Below, in pieces: positions 32,320 to 46,754 of a stretch of 64,000 nucleotides of DNA. The stretch covers positions 1,174,668-1,238,667 of the forward strand of contig CALSNJ010000002.1 in assembly GCA_943787745.1 (NCBI GenBank). The letters are read 5' to 3'. Every line of letters begins with the position of its first letter. The first letter of the stretch is position 1. The position numbers and the translations under genes are program-made. The stretch is from an uncultured Alphaproteobacteria bacterium. GTDB taxonomy: Bacteria; Pseudomonadota; Alphaproteobacteria; UBA6615. A model generated the notes under the pieces. The model ran no database searches. It was not told the origin of the DNA and saw nothing but the letters and a program-made list of their open reading frames with translations.

Positions 32320-33300
32320 TTAGGCGGCGTATTTGCGGTATTGCAAGCGCCGGGCCTTCATCGTTTTCCGTTTGATCCTTTCCCGTTGTTGTAAAATGGC
32401 TTGGCCCCGCCCGAAGTAGACGTCTGCAGGGGTAAGGTTGTTGATGCTCTCGTGGTAGCGTTGATGGTTGTAATGATCGACGAACGCCTCGATCTGCGCC
32501 TCAAGATCTGCCGGGAAGAAGTAGTTTTCCAGCAGGATGCGGTTCTTCAGCGTCTGATGCCATCGTTCGATCTTACCCTGAGTTTGCGGATGATACGGTG
32601 CACCCCTGACGTGCTTCATCTTCTTTTCATCCAGCCATTCCGCCAGCTCACCAGAGACGTAGCTGGAGCCATTGTCCGATAACAGTCTCGGCTTGTGCAC
32701 AACATGGGCCTGATCACAGTCCGATGCCTGCAAGGCGAGGTTCAGCGTCTCGGTCACATCGCTGGTCTTCATGGTCGTGCACAGCTTCCAGGCAATGATA
32801 TAGCGAGAGTAATCATCAAGGATCGTCGATAAGTACATCCAGCCCCAGCCGATGACCTTCAGATAGGTGAAGTCGGTCTGCCACAGTTGATTGATCGCGG
32901 TCGTCTTTTCCTTGAACTCATCAGCAGCCTTGATGACGATGAATGCACGGCTGGTAATCAGATCAAGGGATTTAAGCAGGCGATAGACGGAAGCCTCTGA
33001 GACAAAGTAGCTTTCTGTATCAGTGAAGCGTACTGCCAGTTCGCGAGGAGACAGTTCCGGCACATCCAGGGCCAGGGCAATGATCCGCCGGCGAACGTCA
33101 TCAGGAATGCGGTTCCAGACCCGCGATGGCCTGGGCGATTGATCTTCCAGGGCCTCCGAACCACCAAGCTGATAGCGGTCATACCAGCGATAAAACGTGG
33201 TGCGGGGGATACCTAGCTTGTCCAGCGTCTGCTTGATGGGCAGGTGAGACTGCTCGACAAGGCGGATGATCTCAAGTTTCTCAGATGCGGGGTATCTCAT
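32320..33300 (-). CDS. IS3-family transposase OrfB (DDE catalytic part)
   Basis: Integrase-core transposase subunit of 326 residues. The catalytic triad is Asp143 (QTDFTY), Asp209 (LLSDNGSSY) and Glu245 (GKIERWHQT) with exactly 35 residues between the last two, the DD(35)E signature. An N-terminal helix-turn-helix (IKQTLDKLGIPRTTFYRWYDRY) precedes it. Its ATG overlaps the orfA stop by four bases, and its frame is open upstream across a run of seven A residues in orfA, so a fused OrfAB can be produced by -1 frameshifting. Confidence 0.95.
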   Translation of the reverse strand: MRYPASEKLEIIRLVEQSHLPIKQTLDKLGIPRTTFYRWYDRYQLGGSEALEDQSPRPSRVWNRIPDDVRRRIIALALDVPELSPRELAVRFTDTESYFVSEASVYRLLKSLDLITSRAFIVIKAADEFKEKTTAINQLWQTDFTYLKVIGWGWMYLSTILDDYSRYIIAWKLCTTMKTSDVTETLNLALQASDCDQAHVVHKPRLLSDNGSSYVSGELAEWLDEKKMKHVRGAPYHPQTQGKIERWHQTLKNRILLENYFFPADLEAQIEAFVDHYNHQRYHESINNLTPADVYFGRGQAILQQRERIKRKTMKARRLQYRKYAA

Positions 33301-33671
33301 TCGTCGTCTCCCCCATCCGCGGTCATGCTTTTTTTAAGCAACCTGAGCTCCAGGGTCTGCTCAGCAACAACCTCCTTCAAATCACGTGCTTCACGGCGAA
33401 GGGCTTGAACCTCGCCCGTAGAAGCCGCACGAGCCGTATCACCCGCAAGTCGACGCTTGCCAGCTTCAAGAAACTCTTTCGACCACTTGTAATAAATGCT
33501 CTGCGCAATGCCTTCCCGGCGGCATAACTCCGCGATCGTTTCTTCACCACGCAATCCGTCCAGCACAATGCGGATCTTCTCTTCAGCAGAATATTGCTTG
33601 CGCGTTGCCCGGCGGATGTCCTTGATCGCCTTGGCGGCACCCGTCTGGCGGGTCTGCGATTTCTGTCTCAT
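33297..33671 (-). CDS. IS3-family transposase OrfA (DNA-binding part)
   Basis: Protein of 124 residues with the IS3/IS911 helix-turn-helix (KQYSAEEKIRIVLDGLRGEETIAELCRREGIAQSIYYKWSKEFLEAGKRRL) and a C-terminal leucine-zipper-like coiled coil (VQALRREARDLKEVVAEQTLELRLLKKS). It binds the terminal repeats. A slippery A7 tract near 33326-33332 precedes its stop and would allow ribosomes to slip into orfB. Confidence 0.93.
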   Translation of the reverse strand: MRQKSQTRQTGAAKAIKDIRRATRKQYSAEEKIRIVLDGLRGEETIAELCRREGIAQSIYYKWSKEFLEAGKRRLAGDTARAASTGEVQALRREARDLKEVVAEQTLELRLLKKSMTADGGDDE

Positions 33672-33782
33672 CTTCGTTCCCTTCGGTCACTACGATGAGC
33701 CAGAAATCCTCCCTTATGAAATCCGGCTAGTTTGTTCCATAGGCGCTGACGTCAGACACACAGGCATCCGATTGCATTGCTC

Positions 33783-35160: not shown

Positions 35161-36930
35161 CTACTTCTCTGGAATAATGGGCAGGAGCACGTGGGACGGA
35201 TGATCCGGCCCGGTGTGCAACGTCACCTTGCCGCCATAGACATCCAGCGGACGATTGCCTTTCATCTCATGCTTGAAAGGCCCCACGCCATACTGGACGC
35301 GGCCCGCGATTTCCGGTGAACCCGGCTCGTATCCTGACCAGACATAGTCTCGACCACGCACAGCAAGACCAAGACGGTATCCCTCAGGCAACACGATGGA
35401 TGTCACCCAAACTTCGATATCAAGCTCGTAGACTTCACCGGGCGTGAGTGGCTGGACCTCATCATGGGTGTGATAGGGGCGGTAAGGCAGCGTCTGTTCC
35501 GCATCCAGCTTGCGATGGGATGCGCGCAGCCAACCGATGGCGACAGGCGTGTGAGGATCGTTGGCTCCCTTGAACACGATCTCCTTCATATCGGGCGTAA
35601 ACACACGCAACACCAGAAACAGGTCAGCGTCTTCTGTCTCTGAAGAGACAAACAATTTTGCAGCGACCGGACCTGTGATTTCGGTTTCTTTCTCGAGCGG
35701 CGGTGTAAGAAATACCAGACCATCGCCCATCGGGTCATAGGTCACGCTGGTCGCGTCAGACAACGGCGCGTCGGACAGGGAATTGTCCGACGGGTCGAGA
35801 TACATCTCGGTCCATTCTGTCCGCGGAATCGGCCAGGCGTCTTCAGCGCGCTGGACATACTCTTCACCGGGATGACGCACCAGCAGCTGAACCGGCGGCT
35901 GCTCGCCCCAGCCGGTATCCTCGCCCTTCAGGAAATGCCCGAAGAAACGCTTCTGCAGATCGATGCCGTAATCGGTGTAGTAGTGGGTGAAATGCTCCAG
36001 CCCATGCATTTCGAGCCATTTCTGGTCGCTCGCAGAATTCACAAAGCCTTCGGTGTTGCCACGCGGGTGCAGACCCACGCCGCCCCAATTGCCTGATGAC
36101 AGCAACGGCACATTGATCTTGGAAAAGTCCGGCATGCGGGCCTTCCAGTAGTCATCGACCAGCGGATGATCAAGGATATCCCTGCCAAAGTCGCGACGGT
36201 TCTCCGCCAGTTCTTCTTCGGTCATGGTTTCCGGGCCGGAGATCCATTCGCCGTTCATCCGGCTCTTGATGCCGTTCTCACCCTTGCCGTGCTGACGCGG
36301 AACGACGGCGCTGTTGTACCAGACAGATGGGAAACGACAGGCAATGCCGCCATGGTGACCAAGGTCGCGGTAGTAGTCAGCCGCACCTTCCCAAACGCAC
36401 ATCGCGGCCAGGTGTTTGGGCTGCAGCGAAGCCACCTGCCACTGGTTCATGCCGTAATAGGAAATGCCAGTGGTCCCGACTTTGCCATTCGACCATGGCT
36501 GGGTTCCGGCCCAATTGATGCAGTCGTGAAAGTCTTTTGCTTCACGCGCCGACCACACATCCAGAACGCCCTGCGAGCGCCCCGCCCCACGGGAATCCAC
36601 GCGTATACAAATATAACCGTCCGGCACCCACTTCTCCGGATCAACCAATTCCCAGTTCTGGTACCGGTTTGATGAACCAGCAAGGCAGTCGGGATAATCC
36701 TCGATCATCTGTTTCCACTGAAACGGATACCCGTCCTTCCAGTGCAACCATTTGCAATAGGGGCCGTAGCTGATCAGGACCGGGTATTGCCCGTCATCGT
36801 CGGGACGAAAGACATCGCAACGCAGGACAACACCATCATCCATCTCAAGCGGCACATCCCAGTCGATCCGGATACCAGCAACGACCTTGTCGTAGTTCTG
36901 CCCGATATCTGTGTAGTTTTCGCCGTCCAT
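35161..36930 (-). CDS. CocE/NonD family (S15-like) hydrolase, tandem paralogue 1
   Basis: A 589-residue X-Pro dipeptidyl-peptidase / cocaine-esterase type hydrolase: an alpha/beta core then a C-terminal jelly-roll (from about residue 400, including PLTPGEVYELDIEVWVTSIVLPEGYRLGLAVRGRDYV). The nucleophile elbow is GISYYGMNQW with Ser157. GGGAGAGAG precedes the start. The position where CocE has its acid (GWYD) reads GNWGGVGLHPRGN, lacking Asp. A likely catalytic His is in MHGLEHFTHYY. No signal peptide. Last gene of four tandem copies, 13 bases behind copy 2. Substrate unknown; esters or amides are typical. Confidence 0.88.
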   Translation of the reverse strand: MDGENYTDIGQNYDKVVAGIRIDWDVPLEMDDGVVLRCDVFRPDDDGQYPVLISYGPYCKWLHWKDGYPFQWKQMIEDYPDCLAGSSNRYQNWELVDPEKWVPDGYICIRVDSRGAGRSQGVLDVWSAREAKDFHDCINWAGTQPWSNGKVGTTGISYYGMNQWQVASLQPKHLAAMCVWEGAADYYRDLGHHGGIACRFPSVWYNSAVVPRQHGKGENGIKSRMNGEWISGPETMTEEELAENRRDFGRDILDHPLVDDYWKARMPDFSKINVPLLSSGNWGGVGLHPRGNTEGFVNSASDQKWLEMHGLEHFTHYYTDYGIDLQKRFFGHFLKGEDTGWGEQPPVQLLVRHPGEEYVQRAEDAWPIPRTEWTEMYLDPSDNSLSDAPLSDATSVTYDPMGDGLVFLTPPLEKETEITGPVAAKLFVSSETEDADLFLVLRVFTPDMKEIVFKGANDPHTPVAIGWLRASHRKLDAEQTLPYRPYHTHDEVQPLTPGEVYELDIEVWVTSIVLPEGYRLGLAVRGRDYVWSGYEPGSPEIAGRVQYGVGPFKHEMKGNRPLDVYGGKVTLHTGPDHPSHVLLPIIPEK

Positions 36931-36943
36931 GATCTCTCTCCCC

Positions 36944-38689
36944 TTAACGTGCCGGTATCACCGGCAACAACAGATGCGACGGATGCTTCGGCCCACAATG
37001 GATCGTGACATTTCCGCCATAAACACGCGCATTGCGCCCATCGTGAATGAAGGGTCCAACGCCAGTAAATTCGTTCTTCATATTCGAAAGCTTGCCACCC
37101 GAGCCGCCCGGATAAACATAGTCCGTTCCACGAACAGTCAGGCCAAGGCGATAGCCCGGCGGCACGACAATTGAGGTCGGCCAGACTTCGACATCCAATT
37201 CATAGACCTGACCCGGTTTGAGCGGCTGCTCCTCATCATGGGTATGATGGGGCTTGTGACGACGTGATTTTTTCGCATCAAGCTTCCGATGTGAGGCCCG
37301 CAGCCAACCTTGCGCAATCGGCGTGTGTGGATCGAGCGCGCCCCTGAAGGTGACTTCCTTTAAGTCTGGTGCAAACAGACGCACCACAAGAAACAGGTCG
37401 GCATCCTTGGTCGCGGAAGACACAAACAATTTCGCCGCGAGCGGTCCGGTCACTTCCATGGCCGTTTCAGAAGCCGGCATCAGAAAAGTGACCCCGTCCC
37501 CGAGCCCGGCATATGTGCTCTTCTGTTTTTTGGCAGGCACCTTTGCCGCCAACGCACCGGTGGCGGGCTCCAGATAGGCTTTGGTCCATTTCGTGCGCTT
37601 GAGTGGCCATTCCTTCTCGGCGCGCGGCACAAAGACCTCACCGGGGTGCCGGATATTCAACTGCACCTTCGGCTGCTTCGTCCAGCCCGTGTTTTCACCT
37701 TTCAGGAAATGCCCGAAGAACCGCTTCTGAAGATCGAGGCCGTAATCGGTGTAGAACTCGGTCCAGTGTTCACGACCATGCATCTCAAGCCATTTGTCCT
37801 GAGTTGCCGCATTCACAAATCCGTCGATATTTCCGCGCGGATGCAAGCCCTGCCCACCCCAATTGCCAGCCGACAGAAACGGCACATCGACCTTCGACCA
37901 ATCAGCGGACCGCCCGCGATACCAATCGTCATCCAGCGTGCGTGTGCGCAATTCCTTCGGCAAATCTTCGCGGTTCTTCTTGAGCTGTGCCCGCGTGTAA
38001 GTCGGTGGGCCGCATACGAGATCGCCATGCACGACCGAACGCGGACCATTCTTGCCCAGCCCGTGCTGCACGGATTCTACCTGCTTGTCGTACCAGTTGG
38101 TCACAAAGGTCGACAGGATGCCGCCGTGATAATTGGAATCCCGGTAGTAATCTCCCGCTCCTTCCCAGACGCACATCGCAGCGAGATGGGGTGGCTGCAG
38201 GCGCGCCACATGCCATTGATTTATGGCGTAGTAGGAAATCCCGTTCAGACCGACTTTCCCCGTCGACCACGGCTGGACGCCAGCCCACTCGATGCAATTG
38301 TAGAAGTCCTGCGTCTCACGCGGCGAACGCACATCGACGACGCCCGGTGAGCGCCCCGATCCACGTGAATCCACCCGGATCACAACATAACCATCGGGCA
38401 CCCATTTCTCCGGGTCGACCACCTCCCAGTTGGCGTATTTGTTGGTCGTGCCTTCGGCCACTTCGGGAAAGTTGTCGATCATGATGTTCCAGGCGGTTTC
38501 GTAACCCTCCTGAAACGACAACCCCTTCGCATAAGGGCCATGGCTCATGATGACCGGATACCGGCCCTTTCCCTTCGGGCGAAAAACATCAGCCCGCAGA
38601 ACGTTGCCATCGTCCATTTCGATCGGCACATCCCACTCGATCCGCATGCCATCGCGAATTTCACTTCGATACTGTTTGTCCTTCGCCAT
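36944..38689 (-). CDS. CocE/NonD family (S15-like) hydrolase, tandem paralogue 2
   Basis: A 581-residue paralogue sharing the architecture of its neighbours: RDGMRIEWDVPIEMDDGNVLRADVFRP at the N-terminus, VDSRGSGRSPGVVDV, nucleophile elbow GISYYAINQW (Ser152; Ala in place of the usual Gly), GNWGGQGLHPRGN at the acid position, MHGREHWTEFYTDYG and a C-terminal beta domain. A Lys/Ala-rich insert (ALAAKVPAKKQKSTYAG) distinguishes it. ATG follows AGGGGC, six bases after the stop of copy 3, indicating translational coupling. Confidence 0.88.
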   Translation of the reverse strand: MAKDKQYRSEIRDGMRIEWDVPIEMDDGNVLRADVFRPKGKGRYPVIMSHGPYAKGLSFQEGYETAWNIMIDNFPEVAEGTTNKYANWEVVDPEKWVPDGYVVIRVDSRGSGRSPGVVDVRSPRETQDFYNCIEWAGVQPWSTGKVGLNGISYYAINQWHVARLQPPHLAAMCVWEGAGDYYRDSNYHGGILSTFVTNWYDKQVESVQHGLGKNGPRSVVHGDLVCGPPTYTRAQLKKNREDLPKELRTRTLDDDWYRGRSADWSKVDVPFLSAGNWGGQGLHPRGNIDGFVNAATQDKWLEMHGREHWTEFYTDYGLDLQKRFFGHFLKGENTGWTKQPKVQLNIRHPGEVFVPRAEKEWPLKRTKWTKAYLEPATGALAAKVPAKKQKSTYAGLGDGVTFLMPASETAMEVTGPLAAKLFVSSATKDADLFLVVRLFAPDLKEVTFRGALDPHTPIAQGWLRASHRKLDAKKSRRHKPHHTHDEEQPLKPGQVYELDVEVWPTSIVVPPGYRLGLTVRGTDYVYPGGSGGKLSNMKNEFTGVGPFIHDGRNARVYGGNVTIHCGPKHPSHLLLPVIPAR

Positions 38690-38695
38690 GAGCCC

Positions 38696-40465
38696 CTACT
38701 TTGCTGGAATGATCGGCAGCAGGAGATAGCCCGCGTGATCGCCACCCAAATGCACGGTCACATTGTTGTCGAACACTTCAGGCGGACGATCCGTCTCGTC
38801 GTCATGGAGAAACGGTCCCACGCCGGTGAATGTGTTCTTCATGTTCGACAGCCCGGAATTGGGTTCACCGGGATAGACGTAGTCACAACCCCGGATCGAC
38901 AACCCGAACCGATAGCCTTTGGGCACCACGATTCCGGTTCCATGAATCTCGATATCGAGCTCGTAGATTTCACCCGGCGTGAGCGGCTGCACCTCGTCAT
39001 GGGTGTGCTGGGGCGCATATTCCTCGGACTTGGCCGCATCAAGTTTGCGATGGGAAGCCCGCAGCCAGCCCGACCCGACCGGTGTGTGAGGATCGAGCGC
39101 CCCCCGGAAGGTGACTTCCTTCATGTCTGACTGGAACACCCGCAGGACCACGAACATGTCCGCATCCTTTGTATCTGAAGAAATGTTCAGCTTCACCGCC
39201 ATCGGGCCGCAGATTTCAGTGTCTTCGGCGGCCGGGTTCGACAGGAAGGTCAGACCATCACCCATCGCCTTATAGGAGATTGCGGCTATTTCACTGGCCG
39301 GCGCGTCTGAAAGGACTTGGCCGACAGGCTCAAAATGGAACTTGGTCCACTGGGTGCGCGGCAGGGGCCAGTCTCCTTCGGCACGCGGGATAAACTTTTC
39401 ACCCGGGTGACGCACATTCAGGGATACCCGCGGCTGGTCCTTCCAGCCGGAATCATCGCCCTTCAGAAAGCAGTCGAAGAAGCGCCACTGCAAATCATTG
39501 CCATAGTCGGTGTAGTAGAGCGACCAGTGCTCCAACCCATGGACCTCAAGCCATTTCTCTTTCGAGCTGGAATGCATGAAACCGTTGAAATTGCCACGCG
39601 GATGTAGCGGTGCACCGCCCCAGTTGGCGCAACTCAGGATCGGCACCTCGATCTTCGAATAATCCACCGCCCGATCGGCAAAGAACTCATCGTCAAGCGG
39701 GTGAGCGCGCAACGAACCGTGGAGATCGAAGCGCGTGGCAGCCAATTCCTCATCTGACAAGGTTTCCGGCCCTGCGGCCCATTCACCATTGGCACGGGAG
39801 CGGAAGCCTCGATCACCATAGCCGTGCTGCAGCTTCATGATCTGCATGTCGTACCAGTTGCGTGCGAAAGAGGAATAAATTCCGCCGTGATAGGATCCCT
39901 CACGGTAGTAGTCGGTTGAGCCTTCCCACGGACAAATCGCAGCCAAGTGCGGCGGTTGCAGCGCGGCGACCTGCCACTGATTGATCGCGTAGTAGGAAAT
40001 GCCGCTCAGACCGACCTTGCCGTTCGACCAGGGTTGGACACCACCCCACTCGATGCAATCATAGAAGTCACGGGCTTCGCGCGAATTGAAGTGCTCCAGA
40101 TAGCCGGGAGAGCGGCCGGCACCACGGGAATCGACACGCACCAAGGCATAGCCGCGCGGCACCCATTTCTCCGGATCCGCAACCTCCCAGGCCTGATGGA
40201 TGTTCGTAGAACCTTCCGGTACATCGGGATGATTCTGACACATCAGATCCCAGCAGGTTTTGTAGAGTTCTTCGAAATGAAGGTCTTTGCCATAAGGCCC
40301 ATAGGACATAATGACCGGATACTGACCATCATCATCAGGACGATAGACATTGGCGCGCAGCACAAGCCCATCATCCATTTCGATGGGCACGTCCCAGTCC
40401 ACGCGCATGCCTTCGCGCACTTCGCTCTTGAACAGCGGATCGCCGGTGTACTTGATATCGTCCAT
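38696..40465 (-). CDS. CocE/NonD family (S15-like) hydrolase, tandem paralogue 3
   Basis: A 589-residue paralogue with VREGMRVDWDVPIEMDDGLVLRANVYRP, elbow GISYYAINQW (Ser157), CANWGGAPLHPRGN at the acid position and VHGLEHWSLYYTDYGNDLQWRFFDCFLKGDDSGW. GGAGGAG precedes the ATG. It is separated from upstream copy 4 by 96 bases that contain a strong 11-bp hairpin, whereas copies 3-2-1 are packed within 6-13 bases. Divergence between copies is spread over the whole length, so the duplications are old. Confidence 0.88.
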   Translation of the reverse strand: MDDIKYTGDPLFKSEVREGMRVDWDVPIEMDDGLVLRANVYRPDDDGQYPVIMSYGPYGKDLHFEELYKTCWDLMCQNHPDVPEGSTNIHQAWEVADPEKWVPRGYALVRVDSRGAGRSPGYLEHFNSREARDFYDCIEWGGVQPWSNGKVGLSGISYYAINQWQVAALQPPHLAAICPWEGSTDYYREGSYHGGIYSSFARNWYDMQIMKLQHGYGDRGFRSRANGEWAAGPETLSDEELAATRFDLHGSLRAHPLDDEFFADRAVDYSKIEVPILSCANWGGAPLHPRGNFNGFMHSSSKEKWLEVHGLEHWSLYYTDYGNDLQWRFFDCFLKGDDSGWKDQPRVSLNVRHPGEKFIPRAEGDWPLPRTQWTKFHFEPVGQVLSDAPASEIAAISYKAMGDGLTFLSNPAAEDTEICGPMAVKLNISSDTKDADMFVVLRVFQSDMKEVTFRGALDPHTPVGSGWLRASHRKLDAAKSEEYAPQHTHDEVQPLTPGEIYELDIEIHGTGIVVPKGYRFGLSIRGCDYVYPGEPNSGLSNMKNTFTGVGPFLHDDETDRPPEVFDNNVTVHLGGDHAGYLLLPIIPAK

Positions 40466-40522
40466 GGTGCTCTCCTCCCGGATAGGGCTTTTGTATTATT
40501 CGTTGCGCCCTTTCGAACAATT

Positions 40523-40550
40523 CGGGCGGCTCGTATCTCCGAGCCGCCCG
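40523..40550 (-). promoter_or_regulatory. Strong hairpin between paralogues 4 and 3
   Basis: CGGGCGGCTCG and CGAGCCGCCCG form a perfect 11-bp stem around a six-base loop, in the only sizeable gap of the hydrolase run. On the minus (coding) strand no clear U-tract follows, so it may stabilise the upstream message, or act as a weak terminator that reduces expression of copies 3-2-1 relative to copy 4. Confidence 0.65.
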
Positions 40551-40561
40551 CATTCATTTTC

Positions 40562-42355
40562 TTACTTTTTGCCGCGTCCCTTTTTCTCAGGGATCACCGG
40601 CAACATCACATAGGCCTGTTCTTTGGGCCCGGTATGCAGCTTCACGCCGCCTCCGAAGATATGAGCCGGCCGGTCGCGCGGATCATTATGGGTAAACAGC
40701 CCGCAACCATTCCAGTTTGCATATTCGCCCACCTGGACACTTGAATCCCCGGGATACACGTAATCGTTTCCGCGAACCGAAAGCGCAACGCGATATCCCT
40801 TGGGAATATTGATGCAGGTCGGCCAGACTTCGACGTCAACCTCATAAACCTTCCCGGGTACGAGCGGCTGTTCCTCATCATGGGTGTGGTATGGCCGATA
40901 TGACAGGCTTTTCTTTTCGTCGAGCTTGCGATGCGACACACGTAACCAGCCCTGCGCGAGCGGCGTGTGCGGATCGAGCGCACCCTGAAAGGTCAACTCT
41001 TTCATATCCGGCGCGAAGGCGCGCACGACCAGGAACAGGTCAGCATCCTCCGTATCAGAGGACACCCAGAGCTTCGAAGCGATGGGCCCTGTGATCTCCA
41101 TGTCTTCTTCAAGCGGCGGAGTCATGAAGGTGACACCCTCGGAGAAGCCCTCATAGGCTGCCTCGCCCTTCCTTTTCTGGGCCGTTGTCGACATGCTCAT
41201 GTCATGGGGATCGAGATAGAACTTCGTCCACTCCGTACGCTTGAGCGGCCATTCATTTTCGTGGCGCTCAACAAAGACTTCACCGGGGTGACGAATCTGA
41301 AGCTGAACCTTGGGCTGCTTGTTCCAGCCATTCTTCTCACCCTTCAGGTAATAGCCGAAGAAGCGCTTCTGCAGGTCCATGCCGTAATCGGTATAGAAAT
41401 GCGTCCAATGCTCAATACCGTGCACTTCAAGCCATTTGTCCTTCGACTTGGACTGCGTGAAGCCTTCAAAGTTCCCGCGCGGATGCAGGCCCTGGCCGCC
41501 CCAGTTGGCCGTCGAGAGCATCGGCACCTTGACCTTGTTCCAGTCGGGCATGCGTGACTGCCAGTACTCGTCCGTGTCGAGTTTGCGAGCGAGGCAGTCT
41601 TCGTAGAAGTTGTTCCGGTTGGCGCCAAGTTCTTCCTCGGTCATTGTGACCGGACCCGCCACCCATTCGGCGTTCATCCGTGAGCGCGGGCCATTCGAGC
41701 CTTTGCCATGCTGCACATTGTAAACCTGCGCTTCGGACCAGTTCTTGACGAACCCGTTGCAAAGAATTCCGCCGTGATGCGCCATATCGCGATAGAAATC
41801 GGCAGCGCCTTCCCACGGGCAGATCGCCGCGAGATGCTTGGGCTGCAGAGCTGCTGCCTGCCACTGGTTCTCGGCGTAGTAGGAAATGCCGTTGAGGCCG
41901 ACCTTGCCATTGGACCAGGACTGGACACCGGCCCAGTCGATGCAAAGCGCAAGGTCCTGCGCTTCACGAAGCGACCAGATATCGATGACACCCGGTGAAC
42001 GACCGGTGCCCCGTGAATCCACGCGGATACACACATAGTCATCGGGAACCCAGCGCTCGGGATCAACAACTTCCCAGTTCTGATATTTCTCACTTGTGCC
42101 GGCAGCGATCTCGGGAAAATCCTCCAGCATGCGCTCATACTGGTCGGCATAGGCATCCTCGAAATGAAGCAGCTTGCCATACGGACCGTAGGTCATGATC
42201 ACGCCGTACTTGCCATTCTTGATGGGCCGATAGACGTCACAGCGCAGGACGACACCGTCATCCATCTCGATGGGAACGTCCCAATCGATCCGCATGCCAT
42301 CACGAACATCGCTGCGTGACTGATCATCCATGTATGCTCGCTTTTTCGTCGCCAT
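40562..42355 (-). CDS. CocE/NonD family (S15-like) hydrolase, tandem paralogue 4
   Basis: First transcribed of the four copies, 597 residues from MATKKRAYMDD behind GGGAGAG; the open frame runs 24 codons further without similarity. It has VRDGMRIDWDVPIEMDDGVVLRCDVYRP, elbow GISYYAENQW (Ser158), ANWGGQGLHPRGN, VHGIEHWTHFYTDYG and the C-terminal beta domain, ending with a basic GRGKK tail. Closest in style to copy 2. The promoter for the run probably lies just upstream at 42450-42455. No export signal: cytoplasmic. Confidence 0.88.
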   Translation of the reverse strand: MATKKRAYMDDQSRSDVRDGMRIDWDVPIEMDDGVVLRCDVYRPIKNGKYGVIMTYGPYGKLLHFEDAYADQYERMLEDFPEIAAGTSEKYQNWEVVDPERWVPDDYVCIRVDSRGTGRSPGVIDIWSLREAQDLALCIDWAGVQSWSNGKVGLNGISYYAENQWQAAALQPKHLAAICPWEGAADFYRDMAHHGGILCNGFVKNWSEAQVYNVQHGKGSNGPRSRMNAEWVAGPVTMTEEELGANRNNFYEDCLARKLDTDEYWQSRMPDWNKVKVPMLSTANWGGQGLHPRGNFEGFTQSKSKDKWLEVHGIEHWTHFYTDYGMDLQKRFFGYYLKGEKNGWNKQPKVQLQIRHPGEVFVERHENEWPLKRTEWTKFYLDPHDMSMSTTAQKRKGEAAYEGFSEGVTFMTPPLEEDMEITGPIASKLWVSSDTEDADLFLVVRAFAPDMKELTFQGALDPHTPLAQGWLRVSHRKLDEKKSLSYRPYHTHDEEQPLVPGKVYEVDVEVWPTCINIPKGYRVALSVRGNDYVYPGDSSVQVGEYANWNGCGLFTHNDPRDRPAHIFGGGVKLHTGPKEQAYVMLPVIPEKKGRGKK

Positions 42356-42449
42356 TCGTACTCTCCCAAACACAAGTTTATCCGCACCGCCAAAACGGTC
42401 GGTTTTCATAAAGACCCGTCGCTTCATGCGGACGGTGCCAAATTTCAGA

Positions 42450-42455
42450 ATTATA
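42450..42455 (-). promoter_or_regulatory. Candidate -10 element for the hydrolase run
   Basis: A perfect TATAAT on the minus strand, about 95 bases before the start of paralogue 4, in the 176-base gap after the small secreted-protein gene. The -35 region 17 bases further up is poor (TAAACG-like), so an activator may be needed. Confidence 0.4.
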
Positions 42456-42531
42456 GAATAGTGGAAAAAAGTCGTTTAGTGAAAGGCCCACGAAGCACTT
42501 TCATGCCCGCAATGCACTATCTGCAGCCTGT

Positions 42532-43113: not shown

Positions 43114-43917
43114 TCAGCGTCGGTCTTCCGGATCGACAGTATAACCGAGTTCGTTCATCCAGAGCAGGCTCGTCCAGCTGTCGACTGATGGGTCAAGCTC
43201 CATGCCGATGGCCCCGCCATAGCCCTTTTCGATGGCCCGCCGGGCGATCCAGAGAAGGTCCAGCTCCCCCACACCCGGTTCGTGCCGGTCTGGCGGATTG
43301 CCAATTTGCACATAGCCAATCAGCGGCCAGTATTCGTCCATGATGTCCGACAGGGTGCCGGTTTCCTCGTAGCGCATGTGGAAGGTGTCATAGACCAGCC
43401 CCACATTGGGGCGATCCACGGCCTCCACGATGTCGCGCGCCTGCGCCATGGTTTGCATCGCCCAATCGGGAATGCGTCGGGATGTCACCGGCTCCAGCAA
43501 AAACTTGCAACGGTGGTCACCAGCTGCATCAGCAATATAGGTCAGGTTTTCAACATAGGTCGCAACGCACCGTTCCCGGCTCTCACCCTCGGGCACCGGT
43601 CCGGCCCCGACATTGATCGAGTAGAAGTCGCAATGGGTGATGTAGTCCAGCGCCTGATCAGCAGCGCGACGAAATTCATCCTGTTTGCCGGGCTGAGCGC
43701 CGAGCCCCCGCACGCCTGCGTCCCAGTCCGCGGGGATCACGCAATAAGTGAACTCCAGCCCGTGTTCGTCGAGAATGGATTTCAGCTCATCTTTCGGCAG
43801 CTCATAAGGGAAGTGCCATTCGACGGCTGTGCAGCCAATCTTCGCGATGGCCGCAAACCGCTCCCGGATCGGGAGCTCAAGGAACAGATGATACAGGTTG
43901 GGTGCGAAGCGGATCAT
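43114..43917 (-). CDS. Hydroxypyruvate-isomerase-like TIM-barrel protein
   Basis: A 267-residue protein of the xylose-isomerase-like (AP endonuclease 2) superfamily, closest in style to Hyi. Landmarks are MIRFAPNLYHLFLELPIRERFAAIAKIGCTAVEWHFPYE, FLLEPVTSR, the metal-site pair LVYDTFHMRYEETG and VQIGNPPDRHEPGVGELD, and a final Glu in GMELDPS. Hyi interconverts hydroxypyruvate and tartronate semialdehyde. The metal ligands (Glu, Asp-His, His, Glu) are all in place, so it is likely active on some short keto-acid or sugar. Confidence 0.86.
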   Translation of the reverse strand: MIRFAPNLYHLFLELPIRERFAAIAKIGCTAVEWHFPYELPKDELKSILDEHGLEFTYCVIPADWDAGVRGLGAQPGKQDEFRRAADQALDYITHCDFYSINVGAGPVPEGESRERCVATYVENLTYIADAAGDHRCKFLLEPVTSRRIPDWAMQTMAQARDIVEAVDRPNVGLVYDTFHMRYEETGTLSDIMDEYWPLIGYVQIGNPPDRHEPGVGELDLLWIARRAIEKGYGGAIGMELDPSVDSWTSLLWMNELGYTVDPEDRR

Positions 43918-44009
43918 GACGCATAATCAATTGCCAATGGAGCTGTATCGTAGGACGCACCGGCACCAGAAACAAAGACCTGAATGATCCTCTCAAAGGA
44001 CACGACATC

Positions 44010-44603
44010 ATGACCGAAGCCCACATCTGTTCGCGTTGCCTTGACGTGATCGAACATGACGTCATCCCCATGACCCGCTCTGGCGTGGCAGCAGGGAACA
44101 AAGTTTTCGGGGCGGCGATCCTGCGCAAGTCAGACCTCTCACTGGTCATCGCGGGCACGAATGGCGAAATCGAGAACCCGCTCTATCATGGTGAAATCTC
44201 AACCCTGAACGCGTTCTATGCGATGCCCGACACGGACCGCCCCGCGACACGCGACTGCATATTTGTCTCAACTCACGAGCCTTGCTCGCTTTGCCTATCC
44301 GCCATCACCTGGGCAGGCTTCGACAATTTCTATTATTTCTTCGGCTACGAAGACACCCGCGACGCGTTCAACATTCCCCACGACCTGAAAATTCTGCAGG
44401 AAGTCTTCAAGGTCGAGGATGGTGACTATGCTCGCCAGAACACTTTTTGGGTCTGCAAGGACCTGATCGCGCTGTCATCCGAGATCGAAGATCACGACAG
44501 CCCCTCACGCGCGGCGCAGATCACACGCATACGCGCAGCCTATGACGAATTGTCCGCAACCTATCAGTCCTCAAAGACCGACAACGACATCCCGTTGAGT
44601 TAA
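44010..44603 (+). CDS. Cytidine/deoxycytidylate-deaminase-superfamily protein
   Basis: Zinc deaminase of 197 residues. The catalytic motifs are HGE (His60, Glu62) and PCSLC (Cys92, Cys95). An extra Cys pair at the N-terminus (ICSRC) may bind another metal. ATG 44010 follows AAAGGA. The region between motifs (FYAMPDTDRPATRDCIFVSTHE) and the aromatic FDNFYYFFGYED stretch differ from tRNA-adenosine and guanine deaminases, so the base is not predictable. It is divergent from the Hyi gene and lies 208 bases before the ArcS-like gene on the same strand. Confidence 0.85.
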   Translation: MTEAHICSRCLDVIEHDVIPMTRSGVAAGNKVFGAAILRKSDLSLVIAGTNGEIENPLYHGEISTLNAFYAMPDTDRPATRDCIFVSTHEPCSLCLSAITWAGFDNFYYFFGYEDTRDAFNIPHDLKILQEVFKVEDGDYARQNTFWVCKDLIALSSEIEDHDSPSRAAQITRIRAAYDELSATYQSSKTDNDIPLS

Positions 44604-44650
44604 CCACATCAAGGCAACCTGCCCGGAAACACCTGATTTATCCTGTTCAA

Positions 44651-44715
44651 GGCTTGGGCAAAGCTGCACATGGCTTGGGCAGGATCAGTAACCTCGTCCC
44701 GCACAATCGCCCAAG
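44651..44715 (+). promoter_or_regulatory. Three CTTGGGC boxes upstream of a sigma-54 promoter
   Basis: GGCTTGGGCA occurs at 44651-44660 and again at 44672-44681 (21 bases apart, two helix turns); a third CTTGGGC lies inverted at 44709-44715. They lie 19-84 bases upstream of the -24 element, the place where enhancer-binding activators of sigma-54 bind. No activator gene is in the window. Confidence 0.55.
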
Positions 44716-44732
44716 ACCCCGGGTTCGGTCTT

Positions 44733-44748
44733 TGGCACAGTTATTGCG
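44733..44748 (+). promoter_or_regulatory. Sigma-54 (-24/-12) promoter
   Basis: TTGGCACAGTTATTGCG matches the RpoN consensus: GG at 44734-44735 and GC at 44746-44747 are separated by exactly 10 bases, within TGGCAC-N5-TTGC. It lies about 65 bases before the start of the ArcS-like gene and is oriented toward it. Confidence 0.75.
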
Positions 44749-44811
44749 ACTTCTTTCGCAGATCGTCGATCAAGACAAACCGTCTGATCCACGCTCCATG
44801 TGAGGGAACTG

Positions 44812-45846
44812 ATGATACCGATTGAAGATCGCGCCGCGCGCGTTCTGGATTCCGCCAAAAAGATTGAGAGCCCCTTCGCAGTGGATCCCAGCCTGTGCCT
44901 CTATAGCCCGCAGGACAATGTGGACTCGCTCCAACATCCCCGCATTCTCGAATGGCTGAAATTCGTGCGCGAGGACTACACGCCAAAACTTCCGGAATCC
45001 CAGCGGCGAATTCTACTCTTCATGCCCTGCACCCGAACCAAGCCATACCCCTTTTCAACCGAGCACCAGGCCATCAACCAACGGCTGCTCGACAGCGGTT
45101 TTCAACCAACCAACCGGCTCTATCTGCCGCAAGAGTTGCAGGCTCGATTGGCCGACGGATTTTCCCCGGAAACATTAAATCTCTCACCCCTGATCAACAA
45201 CAAGGGAACCGTGATCCATCGGATGGTGATCTCAGAACCCATGGCCGTGGTGCCCTATGAACACATCGCCGAATTCAACGGCAAGCCCTCGCCGGCTGTG
45301 GCCTATGACGATCCCGGATTGTTCGAAAACCGTGGCAATGCTGTCTCGCCCTGGCGCGCTGATTCAACAGCGCAACAGCAATCTGCCAACCGTTGGAAAT
45401 GGGGTGACGAAGAACTCCAAAGCTATGTGGAAATGCACAATGTGATGGCCCAGACGCTGGCCCATGTCGTCAACCGTATTGGCGATCAATACACGGATAT
45501 CGTTTCTTGGGTGGCACCCGGCCTGACTCATCGCAGCTTCGTCATCGCCAATGACGAACGCGCCGCCAACAAGGTCACCAGCAAACGGAAGATTGCGGGA
45601 GAATGGCAATCCCTGACAGGGGCGAATGACCTGCTCCCCGCCAGTTTCCGAATTTCCTGCCTGCCCACACTCGATCAGTGCCGTGAATCCGTCGCCCGCC
45701 TCGCAGACCGGCTCGGAACCGACCTGTCACACGCCAATGCAATCTATGCACGTGGCGGGGCCAAGGCGACACCGCTGGCGCTTCCCGAACTATTGGATGT
45801 ATTGATGAGTTATCTGACGGAACAAAACCAAACGGCCGCAGCCTGA
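44812..45846 (+). CDS. ArcS (DUF5591)-like protein, possible 7-deazaguanine-modifying enzyme
   Basis: A 344-residue cytoplasmic protein. The start is ATG 44812 with GAGGGAA four bases before it; an in-frame GTG 12 bases upstream overlaps that site. Residues 68-85 read ILLFMPCTRTKPYPFSTEH, the exact PC-X3-KPY-X2-S-X2-H signature of archaeal archaeosine synthase ArcS (Pro72, Cys73, Lys77, Pro78, Tyr79, Ser82, His85). Further on, VISEPMAVVPYEH and PAVAYDDPG correspond to the SPLGVVP and YD motifs of that domain. ArcS joins lysine to the preQ0 base of tRNA. The N-terminal TGT and C-terminal PUA domains of ArcS are absent here. The bacterial function is unknown; a nucleic-acid or nucleotide 7-deazaguanine reaction is an inference. 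Likely RpoN-controlled. Confidence 0.7.
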   Translation: MIPIEDRAARVLDSAKKIESPFAVDPSLCLYSPQDNVDSLQHPRILEWLKFVREDYTPKLPESQRRILLFMPCTRTKPYPFSTEHQAINQRLLDSGFQPTNRLYLPQELQARLADGFSPETLNLSPLINNKGTVIHRMVISEPMAVVPYEHIAEFNGKPSPAVAYDDPGLFENRGNAVSPWRADSTAQQQSANRWKWGDEELQSYVEMHNVMAQTLAHVVNRIGDQYTDIVSWVAPGLTHRSFVIANDERAANKVTSKRKIAGEWQSLTGANDLLPASFRISCLPTLDQCRESVARLADRLGTDLSHANAIYARGGAKATPLALPELLDVLMSYLTEQNQTAAA

Positions 45847-45962
45847 AAATAACGACATTCTAAACCAAGCCCGTCAAAAGCCTTGTTCTTGTAACTCCCT
45901 AACAAGAGCCCCCTCCCGGTGCTAAGACCTGTGCGCAATACACATCTAAATGGGAGAAGACG

Positions 45963-46754
45963 TTGGATCTCAACCTCAAGGGCAAGACAGCAATCGTGTC
46001 CGGCGGCAACAAGGGGCTTGGTGCAGCTTCAGCCATGGCTCTTGCTGCAGAAGGTGCCGATCTTTTCCTGACGGTGCGCAATGCCGAGGATTTGCAGCGC
46101 ACCGCAGATGAGATCACCAGCGCCCATGGCGTAAAGGTTGGCCTGCTGGCGCTCGACATCACCGAAGAGAAATCCGGAGATCAGATCGTGGCCGCCGCGC
46201 TCGAAGAGTTTGACCGGATCGACATTCTCGTTAACGCCGCCGGCGCGGCCCGTGGCGGGGTCTTCCACGACATTGATGACCAAGTCTAGCGTGACGCCTT
46301 CGAACTAAAATTTCTGGGTGCCGTCAAACTCAGTCGCGCTGTCATCCCCCACATGCAGGCCCAGAAATATGGCCGCATCGTCAACCTGATCGGTATGTTC
46401 GGACGTGAACCTGCCAAGCAGGCCTTGCCAGCATCTGCGGTGAATGCCGCCTTCATGGCCATCAATAAAGGCATGTCCCAGATTTACGGCGGGGACGGAA
46501 TCTTCGTGAACGCGGTTGATCCAGGCCCGACCCGCAGCCAGCGCATCCTTAACCTGTTCGAGAATATGGCCAAGGTGAACAACACGACACCCGAGGAACT
46601 GGAGAACGGATTCCGCCAGCAGATCCCCATCGGCCGACTGGGCGAAATGGACGAGGTCGCGCGCGTGGTGACCTTCCTCGCCTCCGACGCATCGGGCAAC
46701 GTTAACGGGACGGTACTTGCGGTTGATGGCGGAATGTCGAAAGGGCTGTTCTAG
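45963..46754 (+). pseudogene. SDR-family oxidoreductase interrupted by an amber codon
   Basis: A short-chain dehydrogenase of 263 codons in one continuous frame except for TAG at 46287-46289 (codon 109), in a place where relatives have Trp (DDQV-stop-RDAFELKFLGAV). The start is TTG 45963 behind GGGAGAAG. VSGGNKGLGAASAMA (cofactor loop), VNAAGAARGG and VDPGPTRSQ are seen; the usual YxxxK is not in standard form (ALPASAVNAA). A single G-to-A change explains the lesion. No other damage is visible, so it is recent or a sequencing error. Confidence 0.85.

Follow-up and report, generated by a model that had tools for sequence, protein, structure and literature searches.

A very likely sigma-54 promoter with two upstream palindromes ahead of a rare DUF5591 (ArcS-like) gene in an alphaproteobacterium

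The window, as the whole stretch of 64,000 nucleotides analysed here is called, corresponds to positions 1174668-1238667 of contig C2 in a 3.27-Mb source genome (G000, completeness 97.9%) which, judged by its gene content and nearest orthologues, is that of an alphaproteobacterium. It contains, on the plus strand at 44812-45846, a gene for a DUF5591 (ArcS-like) protein of 344 amino acids (Pfam PF17884), preceded on the same strand by a cytidine/deoxycytidylate-deaminase-like gene (44010-44603; Pfam PF00383, 39.5 bits). The gap of 208 bp between the end of the latter and the ATG at 44812 harbours the element TGGCACAGTTATTGC (44733-44747, plus strand), which matches all 10 fixed bases of the -24/-12 pattern TGGCAC-N5-TTGC, spaces its GG and GC by exactly 10 bases and is oriented toward the DUF5591 gene. 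The same element also matches TGGCACnnTTnTTGC, the E. coli RpoN motif, which is quoted along with a further E. coli motif, TGCACCAnnnTGGTGCA, in the available part of PMC8743547. Counting 12 bases past the end of the -12 element, transcription would be expected to start at 44759 (plus strand), 53 bp before the ATG, for which GAGGG at 44802-44806 (plus strand) is, to judge from the letters, the likely Shine-Dalgarno sequence. A simple scan of 43900-46000 found no sigma-70-like match, no terminator-like site was found between the deaminase-like gene and the DUF5591 gene, and rpoN itself is encoded in the genome (PF04552, 234 bits). The sigma-54 promoter facing the ArcS-like gene that had been claimed in a preliminary description of this DNA was thus recovered, and to judge from its sequence TGGCACAGTTATTGC is very likely a real one. 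Downstream, a short-chain dehydrogenase gene (45963-46754) contains a single in-frame TAG (46287-46289) that divides it into two halves sharing one frame. Elsewhere in the window the minus strand carries a tandem array of four X-Pro dipeptidyl-peptidase/CocE-type (S15) hydrolase paralogues at 35164-42475, beside a homogentisate 1,2-dioxygenase (Pfam confirms two of the four hydrolases and the dioxygenase), and two overlapping transposase-like ORFs, named by eye, lie near the dioxygenase gene at 32323-33686. A link between the S15/CocE hydrolases and the catabolic cluster described below was rejected, because none of the four matches the fetched cluster loci at E 1e-20.

The match of the protein to PF17884 scores 29.9 bits against a cut-off of 26 and covers 42 of the 150 profile positions, at residues 51-96. 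It is in this DUF5591 match above the Pfam cut-off that the likeness to archaeosine synthase ArcS consists; however, the protein falls far below the NCBIfam equivalog cut-offs for ArcS (29.1 bits against 600, and 23.7 bits against 440), and the orthologues of the window gene, whose products are 69-76% identical, stand in catabolic operons. The gene is rare, being present in 3 of 24 genomes of the order and 2 of 385 sampled in the class, at four loci in genome_contigs (one of which is apparently the contig matched in genome G003) and in a single one of 72,556 plasmid records. An AlphaFold2 model of the protein has a mean pLDDT of 63.5 and gave no fold match in the PDB below E 0.001, whilst no convincing PDB relative was found by sequence, a match to UNC-45 at E 0.0079 being taken as chance; neither comparison pointed to a function. 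A search of the literature found no paper on DUF5591 and none joining archaeosine synthase ArcS to Alphaproteobacteria.

Upstream of the -24/-12 element, two copies of GGCTTGGGCA (44651-44660 and 44672-44681) lie 21 bp apart, exactly as had been noted in the preliminary description, where they were read as direct repeats and, together with a third CTTGGGC, as three phased boxes of an enhancer-binding-protein site. Each copy makes up the right-hand portion of an imperfect palindrome, 17 bp long, of the form TGnnCA-N5-TGnnCA, giving two putative enhancer-binding-protein sites (no strand assigned): site 1, TGTTCAAGGCTTGGGCA, at 44644-44660 (centre ~-107), and site 2, TGCACATGGCTTGGGCA, at 44665-44681 (centre ~-86), two helix turns apart. 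Because related promoters have single palindromes of this form, the direct-repeat reading was replaced by one of two palindromes. The third CTTGGGC is inverted (GCCCAAG, 44709-44715, minus strand), lies 35 bp from the second box, which is not a whole number of helix turns, and belongs to no such palindrome; it was therefore rejected as part of the activator site and is probably incidental. Of the earlier proposal, the phasing of two boxes stands and the enhancer-binding-protein site is supported, in the shape of two palindromic sites, but the third box falls away. A genome search for the repeat near other -24/-12 promoters had been put forward as a route to the regulator; GGCTTGGGCA-N11-GGCTTGGGCA occurs exactly once in G000, and allowing three mismatches yields one extra weak match (two in total, against three in the reversed control), so that the unique CTTGGGC repeat pair was discarded as a genome-wide regulon mark.

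The exact -24/-12 pattern has 19 matches in the 3.27-Mb genome against 6 for a reversed control. Three do not overlap ORFs of at least 100 amino acids, namely TGGCACAGTTATTGC, L013 and L015; L013 is separated from an ATG by only ~13 bases and L015 immediately follows a tRNA-like sequence (recognised by eye), so that of the three TGGCACAGTTATTGC looks most like a promoter. The palindrome form, fixed only after inspection of the window sites, occurs twice in the window, both times at 44644-44681, against a shuffle mean of 1.41; when the 130 bp preceding the -24 element were shuffled, one such palindrome arose in 0.4% of cases and two in 0 of 20,000. A -24/-12 element of at least 8/10 with this palindrome 40-130 bp upstream is found once in the window, at TGGCACAGTTATTGC, the shuffle means being 0.05 (at least 8/10) and 0.00 (10/10). 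These counts bear on the reading that the -24/-12 match is due to chance and that the gene is transcribed by read-through from the deaminase gene or by way of a housekeeping promoter that went unrecognised. Such a reading would suit the 16 of 19 exact matches that overlap ORFs and the same-strand gene upstream with no terminator-like site found in between; it is nevertheless very improbable, given that 43900-46000 lacks a sigma-70-like match, that the -24/-12 element plus two palindromes went unmatched in shuffles, and that in two relatives, genomes G023 and G003, the homologous operon begins behind the same two elements.

In G023 this operon runs in the order alpha/beta-hydrolase, amidohydrolase, Rieske ferredoxin and DUF5591 (the fourth gene, its product 76% identical), and at its head stands TGGCACGGCGTTTGC (10/10 for -24/-12) with the palindrome TGGGCATTGACTGCTCA centred at -96. 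In G003 (DUF5591 protein 74% identical) the start of the hydrolase gene is preceded by TGGCACGATACTTGC (10/10) and the palindrome TGAGCACGCATTGCTCA at -95; the operon is broken over two contigs there, C275 and C139, so its continuity is taken from G023. G000 itself carries the hydrolase-amidohydrolase part on contig C1 (hydrolase 75% identical), with TGGCATGGAAATTGC (9/10) and the palindrome TGAGCATCCGCTGCCCA at -95 upstream. The DUF5591 gene of the window accordingly looks split off from the operon and equipped with a promoter of its own, similar in build. The distances are alike, with palindrome centres from -86 to -107 in all six of six promoters. A lack of conservation upstream of orthologues, which the preliminary description would have held against the promoter, is not seen when whole operons are compared; for the gene taken by itself it is seen in part, the DUF5591 orthologue being, in the relatives examined, an inner gene without a promoter directly in front.

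More distant loci, from a Rhizobium plasmid, Kaistia and Martelella, have the DUF5591 gene behind a flavoprotein gene, with varying neighbours that include an 8-oxoguanine deaminase, an amidase, an aminotransferase and an AraC-type regulator (assigned by annotation, profile or eye). At three of the four loci (two in Martelella, one in Rhizobium) no -24/-12 element of at least 8/10 was found in the stretch scanned before the flavoprotein-DUF5591 genes, and in Kaistia dalseonensis these genes are preceded by TGGTACGGCGATTGC (L025:4360-4374; 9/10) without a palindrome. Since the rhizobial loci are without the layout, this promoter control appears to be a trait of the bacterial family of the window organism and not of the DUF5591 gene everywhere. 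As a separate observation, TGGGCAGCGGAT upstream of TGGTACGGCGATTGC repeats 12 bases of the reverse-complemented site on C1 of G000.

Promoters of the same build extend beyond this operon. A relaxed -24/-12 element combined with TGnnC-N7-GnnCA at a distance of 45-75 bp upstream was matched 7 times in G000, 3 times in G003 and 5 times in G023, with control counts of 1, 2 and 0 respectively. In G000 two of the matches are at the window promoter and one is at the C1 operon; of the remaining four, L078, L081 and L088 lie inside ORFs and L087 is tRNA-linked. A VanA-type Rieske oxygenase, 84% identical between G003 and G023, has promoter sites TGGTCAAGAACTGGGCA and TGCGCAAGAATTGGGCA at ~-88, which have CAAG..YTGGGCA in common with window site 1; a search of G000 at E 1e-60 gave no orthologue of this oxygenase. 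A 39-kb stretch of G023 (C3:738500-777500) contains six promoters in which a -24/-12 element of at least 8/10 is accompanied by TGnnCA-N5-TGnnCA, against a mean of 0.015 and a maximum of 2 in 200 shuffles. Their targets are an NMT1-like ABC binding protein, the VanA-type Rieske oxygenase, the hydrolase-DUF5591 operon, an amidase (by eye) and, around one palindrome, a Rieske oxygenase and a divergent flavodoxin-like/hydrolase operon (the latter two genes by eye). At this last locus (L089:8941-9130) two divergent -24/-12 elements flank the single palindrome TGCTCAAAAATTGAACA, as if one enhancer perhaps served both the Rieske oxygenase and the flavodoxin-like gene. The same 39 kb hold a xanthine permease, ureidoglycolate lyase, allantoicase, HIU hydrolase, an allantoinase PuuE fused to OHCU decarboxylase and a xanthine-dehydrogenase/CODH-type enzyme. 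The arrangement suggests that one sigma-54 regulon may join Rieske oxygenases, the hydrolase-amidohydrolase operon, an amidase and an ABC transporter near ureide genes, and guilt by association makes it about evenly probable that the DUF5591 gene takes part in the breakdown of a nitrogenous, purine-like compound.

The window sites were also compared directly with those of the related promoters. Site 1 is most similar to the Rieske-oxygenase promoter sites of G003 and G023. A weight matrix built solely from five related sites outside the window (three hydrolase, two Rieske) puts the window sites at ranks 1 and 2 among 63,984 positions, as does a matrix from the two Rieske sites alone, although these ranks overstate independence because the form of the palindrome was set after the window had been seen. 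The three hydrolase sites alone rank them only 96 and 132, whilst a matrix from the sites at glnK of G000 places site 2 at rank 2 and site 1 at rank 30. Among the 25 TGnnC-N7-GnnCA positions of the window, sites 1 and 2 tie first in likeness to the Rieske sites with one at 41911.

As to the activator, only four strong matches to Sigma54_activat (PF00158) exist in G000: NtrC (TIGR01818, 706 bits against a cut-off of 558.6), NtrX (703 bits), a DctD-like protein and L035. The GAFTGA motif, the sigma-54 contact according to the available part of PMC10274813, is present only in NtrC and the DctD-like protein, and NtrX and L035 were rejected as activators for want of it; L035 (G000:C2:952586-953059), an NtrC-family regulator of 453 amino acids, is for this reason probably not a sigma-54 activator at all. 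The DctD-like gene lies within a dctB-dctD-TRAP (kinase-regulator-TRAP) operon, and its name rests on this neighbourhood, no model having assigned it. The dctP promoter (L096:8400-8760 in G000) has the -24/-12 element TGGCATCGCCATTGC and, close upstream, the perfect palindrome GATTTTCTA-N8-TAGAAAATC, likely a DctD site by prediction, and TGnnC-N7-GnnCA is absent there. DctD was rejected as the window activator because its own promoter carries this different palindrome. The glnK promoter of G000, by contrast, has TGCACAAATATTGTGCA and TGGCACGAGTCTTGA (TGCACA-N5-TGTGCA and TGGCAC...TTGA) in the arrangement of a -24/-12 element with an upstream palindrome; the 200 bp preceding the -24/-12 element of glnB yielded no TGnnC-N7-GnnCA palindrome. 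With GAFTGA confined to NtrC and the DctD-like protein, and the motif present at glnK and absent at dctP, NtrC is the best candidate by elimination, and the comparison of sites and regulators makes it reasonably probable that NtrC is the activator at the window promoter. The RpoN regulation that had been proposed earlier gains support from the presence of rpoN, the recurrence of the elements at operon heads in relatives and the GAFTGA-bearing NtrC, all at the level of sequence.

Against the NtrC-type form TGCAC-N7-GTGCA, as found at glnK, site 2 matches at 9/10 and site 1 at 7/10, a score of 9/10 being near background genome-wide (89 such matches in G000 against 70 in the control). An alternative reading is that the promoter is of the sigma-54 type and served by some other enhancer-binding protein with TGnnCA half-sites, which would sense a substrate of the catabolic cluster and would either be missing from the assembly or be the DctD-like protein, active in this case beyond the operon to which it belongs. 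Half-site positions 3-4 do differ from the TGCAC of glnK (TGAGC, TGGTC, TGTTC, TGCGC), the grouping of six such promoters within a single catabolic island of G023 would suit a pathway-specific regulator, and at a completeness of 97.9% another activator could be missing from G000. On the other hand, no enhancer-binding-protein gene was recognised by eye among the translated frames, whether in the 39 kb of G023 or in the neighbourhood of the split operon of G000, which has only two GAFTGA regulators and a different palindrome at dctP, and site 2 agrees at 9/10 with the NtrC-type form; a non-NtrC activator is considered unlikely. Palindromes of 17 bp are used by many regulators, and those of the window might be operators of an ordinary sigma-70 repressor or activator, unrelated to the -24/-12 element. 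Some alphaproteobacterial NtrC proteins without GAFTGA do act with sigma-70, as described in the available part of PMC10274813, but the NtrC of G000 keeps GAFTGA and the distance of the palindrome from the -24/-12 element is similar in six of six promoters, so that sigma-70 operators are an extremely improbable explanation.

Control by NtrC and sigma-54 would place the window promoter beside known promoters of the glnA and glnK-amtB type, with which it shares the -24/-12 element and 17-bp palindromes 60-140 bp upstream. It differs from them in half-sites that are degenerate at positions 3-4, with A at 6 and T at 12, and in serving a catabolic gene that does not belong to the core regulon. PMC5343134 describes NtrC regulons that have taken in urease, urea transport, allophanate hydrolase and nitrate/nitrite genes, several of them alphaproteobacterial; these taxon-specific extensions would resemble the present case in comprising genes for the breakdown of nitrogen compounds, although the available part of that paper mentions neither a DUF5591 gene nor a Rieske oxygenase nor a purine/ureide cluster among them. 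No paper tying NtrC/sigma-54 (RpoN) to purine degradation or allantoin was found in the literature searched, and one on NtrC, allantoinase and sigma54 concerns, in its available part, E. coli allF and ArcA/AllS. The kind of promoter is hence already known, whilst the regulon and the gene are new as far as the literature searched shows.

The explanation as a whole, which is judged likely, is that a sigma-54 promoter and an NtrC-type activator, likeliest NtrC, drive the DUF5591 gene. The activator would bind the 17-bp palindromes at ~-107 and ~-86 as two dimers sitting on the same helix face, and would from there drive open-complex formation by sigma-54 polymerase at 44733-44747. As the activator is most likely NtrC, the gene would be switched on under nitrogen limitation. 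The ancestral operon would have been split in G000, its hydrolase-amidohydrolase part coming to lie on another contig with its own -24/-12 element and palindrome, and the separated DUF5591 gene would either have retained control of this kind or have acquired it anew. More tentatively, and with rather less than even probability, an NtrC/sigma-54 regulon in at least two genera of one alphaproteobacterial family may switch on a hitherto undescribed nitrogen-stripping route for a purine-like or other N-heterocyclic compound with the DUF5591 protein as an enzyme; within this reading the regulon would have survived the splitting of the operon, because the separated gene has a promoter of the same kind. 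A rare family lacking an assigned function thereby gains a testable setting, that of nitrogen limitation and the breakdown of nitrogenous compounds, and if the activator is NtrC, the search for the substrate would narrow to nitrogen sources, with a clear reporter.
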